A model generated the notes under the pieces. It worked only from the letters and a program-made list of their open reading frames with translations. It ran no database searches and was not told the DNA's origin. 64,000 nt of DNA from assembly GCA_947441615.1 (NCBI GenBank), contig CANEUH010000006.1, positions 62,001 through 126,000 of the forward strand. Reading direction: 5' to 3'. Each line of letters starts with the position of its first letter. Position 1 is the stretch's first letter. Below, one piece after another: positions 46,010 to 48,041 of the stretch. Made by a program: the position numbers and the translations under genes. Source of the DNA: Bacteriovoracaceae bacterium. Its GTDB lineage: Bacteria > Bdellovibrionota > Bacteriovoracia > Bacteriovoracales > Bacteriovoracaceae.

Positions 46010-46040
46010 GAGGGCCCTCAATCAAGAGGGCCCTCCATTT
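46010..46040. terminator. Hairpin between htpG and the convergent DksA-type gene
   Basis: GAGGGCCCTC (46010-46019), itself palindromic, is repeated at 46026-46035 after AATCAA, giving a ten-base stem. The T run is short (ATTTATT), so strong pairing but imperfect tail. Serves both convergent genes. Confidence 0.65.
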
Positions 46041-46052
46041 ATTAATCCTGAA

Positions 46053-46529
46053 TTATCCTACAATATCTTGGTAATCCATATGTCTAACATGGAAGTTCGA
46101 AGTTCCAGTTTCGTCAGCTTTAAATCCTCTTTCAAGTTGCTCAATAGGTAGAACTTTACCATTCTTGATCGACTTTTTGTTTCTATGAAAAAGCTGATTC
46201 TCTTCTTTTTCTTCTGCTTCTTTACAATGGATACATAAATCAGCTGTTGGTCTTGCGATTAATCGATTTTGATTGATCTCAGCACCACACTCCTCACACT
46301 CACCAAAGGTACCATCTTCTATCTTTTGAAGAGATTTTTTAACTTTTTTTAGATAAATCGCGTTTCTTGCTTTCAATCGAAAATCCATTTGATTTTCTTT
46401 TTCAACTGAGACGATATCAACTTCATCGCCTTCAAGGCTTACAGGATAGAGTTTACCTTCAGACACTTCTTCTTCAGAGAGAATCTCTAAAAATAGGTTT
46501 TTGAAATTTTCTAAATTTGCCTTTTCCAT
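46053..46529 (-). CDS. DksA/TraR-family zinc-finger transcription regulator
   Basis: 158 residues from ATG 46529, preceded by AAGGAG at six bases; an upstream in-frame ATG (46544) is rejected because it would place this ribosome site inside the gene. Helical N-terminal part, then the C4 zinc finger GECEECGAEINQNRLIARPTA...CIHC typical of the DksA/TraR family. Such proteins enter the RNA polymerase secondary channel and reset promoters, often with ppGpp. The gene has an unusual leader with a sigma-54 promoter and three GGA-loop hairpins. Confidence 0.88.
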   Translation of the reverse strand: MEKANLENFKNLFLEILSEEEVSEGKLYPVSLEGDEVDIVSVEKENQMDFRLKARNAIYLKKVKKSLQKIEDGTFGECEECGAEINQNRLIARPTADLCIHCKEAEEKEENQLFHRNKKSIKNGKVLPIEQLERGFKADETGTSNFHVRHMDYQDIVG

Positions 46530-46675
46530 GAAACTCTCCTTCATTGTGTTATCTTCCTTGAGTCATTATTTCGGTTTCAAATCCTTTGAAACTGAATGCT
46601 AGTCCTTAGCATGGAGACCAGAGGGAGAATTCCTTTTCAAGATCACTCATCCTTGAGTGGCCCCCTTTCTCTTGG
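46530..46675 (-). promoter_or_regulatory. Long leader with tandem CsrA/RsmA-type GGA hairpins
   Basis: Read leftward, the predicted RNA from about 46675 to the dksA-type start contains three perfect hairpins with GGA in the loop: CACTCA-AGGA-TGAGTG (46659-46644), ATGCTA-AGGAC-TAGCAT (46612-46596) and GTTTCAAA-GGA-TTTGAAAC (46592-46574). Two more GGA triplets lie between (46633-46631, 46557-46555) and the ribosome site AAGGAG is itself a GGA site. CsrA binds exactly such loops, as in CsrB, RsmY and RsmZ. No T-rich terminator separates the hairpins from the gene, so this is either a CsrA-controlled mRNA leader or a CsrA-sponging 5' region. Confidence 0.55.
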
Positions 46676-46686
46676 AATCCCTTTCA

Positions 46687-46701
46687 GCAGGAATCATGCC
46701 A
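46687..46701 (-). promoter_or_regulatory. Sigma-54 (-24/-12) promoter upstream of the hairpin leader
   Basis: Read leftward, TTTTGGCATGATTCCTGCTG: GG (46700-46699) and GC (46688-46687) are separated by exactly ten bases, with TTGGCA and CTGCT close to TTGGCAC-N5-TTGCT. Start expected near 46675, just before the first hairpin. Confidence 0.55.
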
Positions 46702-46889
46702 AAACAAAACCTCTGTAATTTCAGCAAGTTTAAAAACATTCATTCGATTTTTTTGGTCCTATTAAGATGGAAGTCATTCATTAAGAGGTCAAATTAGCTC
46801 CTCTGTCGGAGTCACTTCGTCCCTTAAGGGGTGCCACAACTACAGTCTCACGCGATGACCTTAATAGACCGTGTAAGATTTTCGGCCAG
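46702..46889. other. Intergenic region upstream of the sigma-54 promoter
   Basis: No reading frame with a ribosome site. Some short repeats are visible read leftward (TCTTAAT twice, and two copies of TTAAGG followed by a GTGA-containing stretch), which could be activator sites at the expected distance, but they are imperfect. Confidence 0.3.
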
Positions 46890-47577: not shown

Positions 47578-47613
47578 AAGGGGCCAATTTTTGTTTGAGG
47601 CCCCTTATTTTAT
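47578..47613 (+). terminator. Rho-independent terminator
   Basis: AAGGGGCC (47578-47585) pairs with GGCCCCTT (47599-47606) around a 13-base loop, followed by ATTTTAT. It also lies at the end of the convergent FliG-like gene. Confidence 0.7.
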
Positions 47614-48041
47614 ACATATTTTTCTGATTTATCTTTGGATAAAATGATCTCCCCTTTATCCCTCAGCTTATGAACCACATCCATAATTTTTTTCTGAGCT
47701 TCCATCACTTCACTCAAGGGACGAGGCTTACCTTTTAAAATATCCTCAACATCATTTTTCATATTTGTAGAGAACATATTTAGAAGATGATTAACCGTTT
47801 CTTTATTCGCACCACGAAGGGCAAGACCCAAAACATTGAGATCAATATCCTGAAGAAGCCTTTTCATCATTGTCACTGTTAGAAACTGAAGGTCATCAAA
47901 TGTAACGAGATTTTGTTTTAACTTAATCGCCATCTCAGGATCTCTTCTCGCTATTTCTGCAATCAATGATTGCTGTGAGGCAAGATCAAGTCCCTGAAGC
48001 ATTTCAATTGCTTGCTTTAGACCATCAATTTTCTTATTCAT
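47610..48041 (-). CDS. Stand-alone FliG C-terminal-domain protein
   Basis: 143 residues. After a short helical N terminus it follows the FliG C domain closely: DPEMAIKLKQNLVTFDDLQFL, RLLQDIDLNVLGLALRGA, NHLLNMFSTNMKNDVEDIL, PRPLSEVMEAQKKIMDVVHKLRDKGEIIL. FliG is normally about 335 residues with N and middle domains that bind FliF and FliM; both are missing here. The segment after FxD-L that in FliG carries paired acidic torque residues (LDDR) is LTVT. Thus fold kept, torque surface changed. Overlaps hldD by four bases. Confidence 0.75.
   Translation of the reverse strand: MNKKIDGLKQAIEMLQGLDLASQQSLIAEIARRDPEMAIKLKQNLVTFDDLQFLTVTMMKRLLQDIDLNVLGLALRGANKETVNHLLNMFSTNMKNDVEDILKGKPRPLSEVMEAQKKIMDVVHKLRDKGEIILSKDKSEKYV

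Follow-up and report, generated by a model that had tools for sequence, protein, structure and literature searches.

The DksA-like gene of the window, the stretch of 64,000 nucleotides from a Bacteriovoracaceae bacterium analysed here, was preceded by what we can predict with strong confidence to be a conserved structured RNA leader, displaying the loop signature of CsrA-binding sites and situated behind a sigma-54 promoter element. CsrA likely binds this leader, and joint titration of CsrA by the leader and a second RNA, termed RNA B, is plausible. For the proposal as a whole, namely that the sigma-54 leader and RNA B titrate CsrA and that CsrA controls the DksA-like protein, we consider the case a good one and the proposal probable. 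Transcription, the activator, CsrA binding, translational control and titration are what we infer from the following elements.

46808..46822, minus strand: activator-like box 1, GGACGAAGTGACTCC (PWM score 16.8; conserved block in the promoter alignment)
46787..46801, minus strand: activator-like box 2, inverted, GGAGCTAATTTGACC (PWM score 17.3; conserved block)
46687..46702, minus strand: sigma-54 -24/-12 promoter, TTGGCATGATTCCTGC (sequence; exact GG-N10-GC)
46530..46676, minus strand: predicted untranslated leader of about 146 nt; from the promoter spacing, transcription would start near 46676, about 11 nt past the promoter element
46661..46671, minus strand: 5' arm region of the long-range stem P1, which encloses H1 and H2 (swapped-arm test; covariation)
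46644..46659, minus strand: hairpin H1, CACTC[AAGGAT]GAGTG (alignment; covariation; swapped-arm test)
46627..46638, minus strand: hairpin H2, GAA[AAGGAA]TTC, in GAAAAGGAATTC (alignment; covariation)
46614..46625, minus strand: 3' arm region of P1 (swapped-arm test; covariation)
46596..46612, minus strand: hairpin H3, ATGCTA[AGGAC]TAGCAT (sequence; in the single-sequence fold)
46574..46592, minus strand: hairpin H4, GTTTCAA[AGGAT]TTGAAAC (swapped-arm test)
46553..46564, minus strand: GGA site outside hairpins, in GACTCAAGGAAG (sequence; alignment)
46534..46541, minus strand: ribosome binding site with GGA, AAGGAGAG (sequence; alignment)
46053..46529, minus strand: DksA-like regulator with a zinc finger; 158 aa when read from the conserved start (PF01258, 42.9 bits)
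46010..46035, minus strand: inverted repeat between the DksA-like gene and a convergent gene, terminator-like by score for the plus strand only

The preliminary description of this region had noted a -24/-12 element, three perfect hairpins with GGA in the loop, a GGA-containing ribosome site and no terminator ahead of a DksA/TraR-type gene. This observation was real: positions 46702-46687 of the minus strand match the GG-N10-GC element perfectly, hairpins H1, H3 and H4 as well as the ribosome site could be read directly, leader and gene were not separated by any terminator-like site on their strand, and the zinc finger PF01258 was matched by the gene product. The extra GGA triplets it mentioned were present as well, only their count, hairpins and ribosome site apart, has to be raised from two to three. 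It had also suggested looking for csrA and rpoN in the genome, and both were found, csrA in a single copy next to fliW and to a gene judged flgL-like by eye, rpoN with 213.6 bits. A further GGA lies in AAAGGGATTCC (46684-46674, minus strand), partly at the presumed start. H2, with a stem of 3 bp, has equivalents in relatives, and the stem of H4 could be extended up to a GGA triloop. The gene was taken to start at 46529 (ATGGAAAAG), not at the in-frame ATG at 46544, because ATGGA is invariant in 25 aligned leaders; its product scored below the curated cut-off of the DksA equivalog TIGR02420 (82.2 vs 115.5 bits).

Taken alone, the window leader was unremarkable. Its three GGA hairpins, for an expectation of 1.47, were equalled in about 19% of 300 shuffles, and its fold energy was ordinary (z -0.63; 48 of 200 shuffles as low), with H3 and H4 present in the minimum-energy fold and H1 absent from it. 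An Rfam scan of the window returned a single match, to a tRNA elsewhere, and no Csr/Rsm family; for seven other loci it gave only matches under the gathering scores, again without a Csr/Rsm family. Since the window leader by itself stays within chance in hairpin count and fold energy, the case rests on its relatives.

A protein search of 98 genomes, 97 of which matched, yielded the 30 best loci of the DksA-like gene (L003-L032, own locus included), 24 of them from the genus of the window's organism; two genomes of this genus, G007 and G010, gave no close orthologue in that search. TTGG[CT]A was correctly placed upstream in all 30 loci and GC stood at -12 in 29, L031 having GG. Among 35 more loci, 22 possessed a sigma-54-type element (18 of L033-L052, and L055, L063, L064 and L067 of L053-L067) and 13 did not (L046, L051 and 11 of L053-L067). 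The latter include two of the three DksA paralogues of the own genome, which showed neither promoter nor hairpins, and in 12 of the 13, the count covering all but L051, GGA hairpins of at least 5 bp were absent. The 52 loci with the element constitute our leader set. The pattern TTGGCAYNNNNNNTGC occurred at 29 sites in the own genome, as compared to two for the reversed control pattern. In the surroundings of the promoter, the window encodes at 47610-48041 (minus strand) a 143-aa protein with a match to the FliG C-terminal domain (77.1 bits), and in several relatives the end of an apparent FliG-like gene was seen by eye directly upstream of the dksA-like promoter.

CsrA sites follow a simple rule, an A(N)GGA-type loop at the top of a short stem, and conserved A(N)GGA motifs in hairpin loops, as expected of a CsrA leader, are what the relatives exhibited. 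Not counting the ribosome site, the 52 leaders had a mean of 5.1 GGA; their GGA hairpins averaged 2.9, as compared to 0.9 in shuffles (stems of at least 4 bp). When loop triplets were counted for stems of at least 5 bp in 51 leaders, L007 being left out as a near copy, GGA was the commonest, with 87 occurrences vs 9.7 expected. GGA loop hairpins amounted to 1.71 per leader vs 0.09 per stretch in a control of 510 stretches drawn at random from the same loci. The bases preceding the loop GGA were mostly AA and the following base mostly T. Under a strict definition (Watson-Crick stems of at least 5 bp, short loops), at least one such hairpin was present in 38/52 leaders and at least two in 16/52.

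Pairing was kept through sequence changes among relatives, in keeping with the compensatory changes that the preliminary description had named as a check on the stems. In the 24 leaders used for P1 (23 of the own genus and L027), pairs such as CGAAGG/CCTTCG, TAAAGG/CCTTTA and CGGAGG/CCTCCG were found, and a leader's own arms outpaired arms swapped between species, a result equalled in 0/2000 permutations. The same comparison gave 0/5000 for H4 in 21 of these leaders, the other three having no site under the rule used, and 0/5000 when 80 AGGA sites were compared across the 27 leaders from beyond the genus (L027 left out). For H1, which is nearly invariant, the preference was modest (53/5000), and we count this against our main reading. 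In a model-fitted alignment of 23 sequences, 96.8% of cells paired and 36 cells had changed on both sides; none of 500 shuffles attained its covariation, in an alignment that is biased towards structure. Seven sequences aligned without the model gave a weaker result, with the covariation score reached in 4/500 and the both-side changes in 200/500 shuffles, and this, too, speaks against our main reading. RNAalifold on a MAFFT alignment returned only H1 and four pairs within promoter DNA, the latter dismissed as an artefact.

Of 58 genomes, 23 matched the covariance model of the leader core, and each of them belongs to the own genus (23/26), where the leader of G004 is present under the model's threshold. 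The core occurred once per genome, one doubtful extra aside: a second match in G025 (L107, E 6e-4), weak and ahead of an unrelated gene, was rejected as chance-like. The exact pattern of promoter and H1 matched 16 contigs of a genome collection comprising, by its own description, 84,980 species. Ten of these are titled Bacteriovorax stolpii or Bacteriovoracaceae, a family that is part of Bdellovibrionota, four are titled 'Proteobacteria bacterium', and the remaining two, in Flavobacteriales and Nitrospira, were taken as chance.

In a second family, that of G093, the best DksA-like locus carried a sigma-54-type element in 13/13 genomes (those of G073 and G093 are also counted among the 52). Its leaders measured 58-132 nt with 2-9 GGA, and a GGA hairpin of at least 4 bp was found in 10/13, with none at that threshold in 3/13. 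The element was also present at one DksA-like paralogue of this family, L213, and absent at 15 others, L216 being left out of the count. Nine of these 15 had a GGA hairpin upstream nevertheless, which counts against our main reading, and GGA sites at DksA-like genes therefore extend beyond the sigma-54 form. GGA hairpins such as GCTCA[AGGA]TGAGC were observed at the element-less paralogues L223-L225 and L227-L229. The predicted arrangement of promoter and leader is thus, at the sequence level, common to much of Bacteriovoracaceae and to a second family of Bdellovibrionota.

Only two of the 29 sigma-54-type sites in the own genome had GGA hairpins of at least 5 bp within 200 nt, the leader and the following one.

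L140 1501-1680 (G000:C25:55000), intergenic: RNA B of the own genome, with sigma-54-type element, GGA and terminator-like hairpin

RNA B, newly found here, is predicted to be a second, stand-alone GGA RNA of the sigma-54 type. At L140 it would be about 139 nt long with five GGA, and its last part, TTGGTTC-AAGGAA-GAACCAA-T7, is a terminator-like hairpin whose loop contains GGA. A small frame lies on the upstream side of RNA B, followed by a gene for a sigma factor, which matches Sigma70_r2 and r4 and looks sigma-28-like by eye. RNA B was detected by BLAST in 15/58 genomes (13/26 in the genus, plus two weak matches elsewhere) and by a core model in 24/98 (23/26 in the genus and a weak match in G034). 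The RNA B loci scanned against Rfam had no match at gathering score. The script that located whole RNAs demanded a sigma-54-like element and placed 22 of 24 RNA B loci; all 22 elements read TTGGCAY-N6-TGCT, and the RNAs contained 4-7 GGA each. L178, a locus of 1568 bases, ends at its RNA B match, and the whole RNA could not be located there; at L199, TTGGCGCAGGTTATGC was seen by eye upstream of the match. The stems of RNA B covary (11 sequences; 0/500 shuffles as high), and at about 10 of the 22 loci the terminator-like hairpin is followed by a short frame (MEEMLVLGAVMISS-like, some 30 codons). To judge from sequence, RNA B at L140 and L176-L198 has what is expected of a sponge sRNA, being stand-alone, with several GGA and a terminator; the leader is not such a stand-alone transcript with its own terminator. 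Near RNA B, on the same contigs, we observed a third kind of locus, at L162 (reverse strand, near 1838), L168 (near 2144) and L170 (reverse strand, near 358); there, a short frame (MEMIFVLGGLMSMMFTSLVLQYSS-like, some 30 codons) is preceded by a sigma-54-type element and GGA motifs.

The promoters of dksA-like genes have two to three upstream boxes with the consensus GGCCTAAGTGGCCCC. Using a matrix trained on 24 of these promoters, with 4000 random stretches of own-genome loci as null, a score of at least 11.4 was obtained for 10/22 RNA B promoters vs 63/4000 random stretches; among the nine RNA B promoters scored first it was 7. These box scores make an activator common to the leader and part of the RNA B set likely, the window's genome excepted: its own RNA B scored a weak 9.3, with 209/4000 random stretches reaching 9, which again counts against our main reading. 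Sixteen PF00158 matches in the own genome provide a pool of candidate activators. One other of its 29 sigma-54-type sites, and only one, has a strong box: L120, around 1460-1516 (G000:C5:103234; score 14.1), where the downstream frame seems by eye to leave the end of the locus.

We propose that an enhancer-binding activator at the GGYC...GRCC-like upstream boxes would fire the sigma-54 promoter, and that the resulting transcript would be the mRNA of a DksA-like regulator of RNA polymerase. Its leader would act as a structured CsrA-binding RNA, the long-range stem displaying two GGA hairpins, followed by two more, one GGA outside hairpins and the GGA of the ribosome site. CsrA along the leader would repress translation of the DksA-like protein. 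At high sigma-54 transcription, leader and RNA B would sequester CsrA, and this may free further CsrA targets at the same time as the DksA-like protein. The preliminary interpretation is supported in that the checks on csrA, rpoN and stem pairing failed to refute it; the two readings initially offered, control of the regulator by CsrA and titration of CsrA by the leader, are mutually compatible and may both hold. A wider view would be a sigma-54-driven Csr antagonist system of Bdellovibrionota's own, with one activator and at least two GGA RNAs (leader and RNA B) plus the related leaders before tiny peptides, the same transcripts yielding Csr release and RNA polymerase reprogramming. This we advance tentatively, giving it slightly less than even chances.

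Control in cis could suffice, CsrA repressing or activating translation of the DksA-like protein via the leader without meaningful titration. The GGA ribosome site and the sites upstream of it fit repression. E. coli dksA is reported to be repressed by CsrA after transcription, and among CsrA target leaders that of glgC has four sites and that of pgaA six (PMC7652899). A link between CsrA and DksA is therefore already known; the account of E. coli dksA makes no mention of a sigma-54 promoter or a multi-hairpin leader. However, the far-upstream sites and the enclosing stem are kept here, seemingly beyond what blocking a ribosome would need, and the co-existence of the sponge-like RNA B with its sigma-54 elements points to titration. 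We therefore hold control in cis alone to be rather unlikely.

Less probable still, the hairpins might serve another ligand, be it a different RNA-binding protein or the ribosome, as standby or decoy sites. GGA overlaps the Shine-Dalgarno core, and this resemblance to a ribosome site counts against our main reading. Four genomes (G013, G020, G054 and G057) have the leader and no credible csrA even by a loose search. Completeness is 59-84% for the first three, whereas G057 is estimated at 100% and carries two DksA-like loci with a sigma-54 GGA leader (L030 and L041); this, too, we count against CsrA as ligand. On the other hand, the preferred loop, A-A-G-G-A-T atop short stems, is that of the CsrA rule, and csrA was found in 82 of the 98 genomes examined, in 81 over the cut-off. 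G038 gave no csrA match. L059 and L062, from csrA-less genomes outside the family, had neither promoter nor hairpins upstream, and with only two such loci, too few, we claim no correlation between csrA and leader. Control through translation of an upstream open reading frame beginning in H1 (GGATGAGTG; 14 codons in the window, ATG included), the hairpins being incidental, was rejected as most improbable, with the ATG missing in 5/24 leaders and frames of 3-41 codons in the other 19.

Under CsrA binding and titration, leader and RNA B would join known sponges with some differences. CsrB-type sponges are under GacA/UvrY-type control, whereas leader and RNA B possess sigma-54 elements. RNA B resembles them in being intergenic with a terminator-like hairpin at its end; the window leader, in contrast, runs on into a coding gene. 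Pseudomonas CrcZ, a CbrB/sigma-54-driven sponge of Hfq/Crc, offers a precedent for sigma-54 and an activator making a sponge RNA, but for another protein and with another motif. The closer parallel may be the flaA mRNA leader of Campylobacter jejuni, described, along with FliW, as both a target and a sponge of CsrA (PMC4894983). Like the window leader it is an mRNA leader with GGA motifs in an organism encoding FliW, and it is able to titrate CsrA; it differs in having a sigma-28 promoter and in preceding flagellin instead of a DksA-like regulator. The present system, where CsrA binding is predicted, further differs from flaA by the stem around H1 and H2 and by the existence of RNA B as a separate RNA. 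Several GGA motifs and a regulated promoter are also shared with CsrB/CsrC and RsmX-Y-Z (PMC11882849); for Pf2/Pf3, the same paper used iodine staining of glycogen in E. coli as the read-out of relief from CsrA. The main text of a Bdellovibrio attack-phase transcriptome paper contains neither csrA nor dksA (PMC3627812). In the open-licence literature, the matches listed included neither a sigma-54-driven Csr sponge nor CsrA in Bdellovibrio or Bacteriovorax, and of the 10 papers there that contain both CsrA and Bdellovibrio, none has CsrA in Bdellovibrio as its topic by title or abstract opening.

In conclusion, leader and RNA B are named RNAs on which it can be tested how predatory bacteria change programme. 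If our proposal holds, a sponge-like mRNA would exist far from the gammaproteobacterial Gac/Rsm systems. The arrangement suggests an unstudied switch that would join three global control systems, sigma-54, CsrA and a DksA-like regulator.
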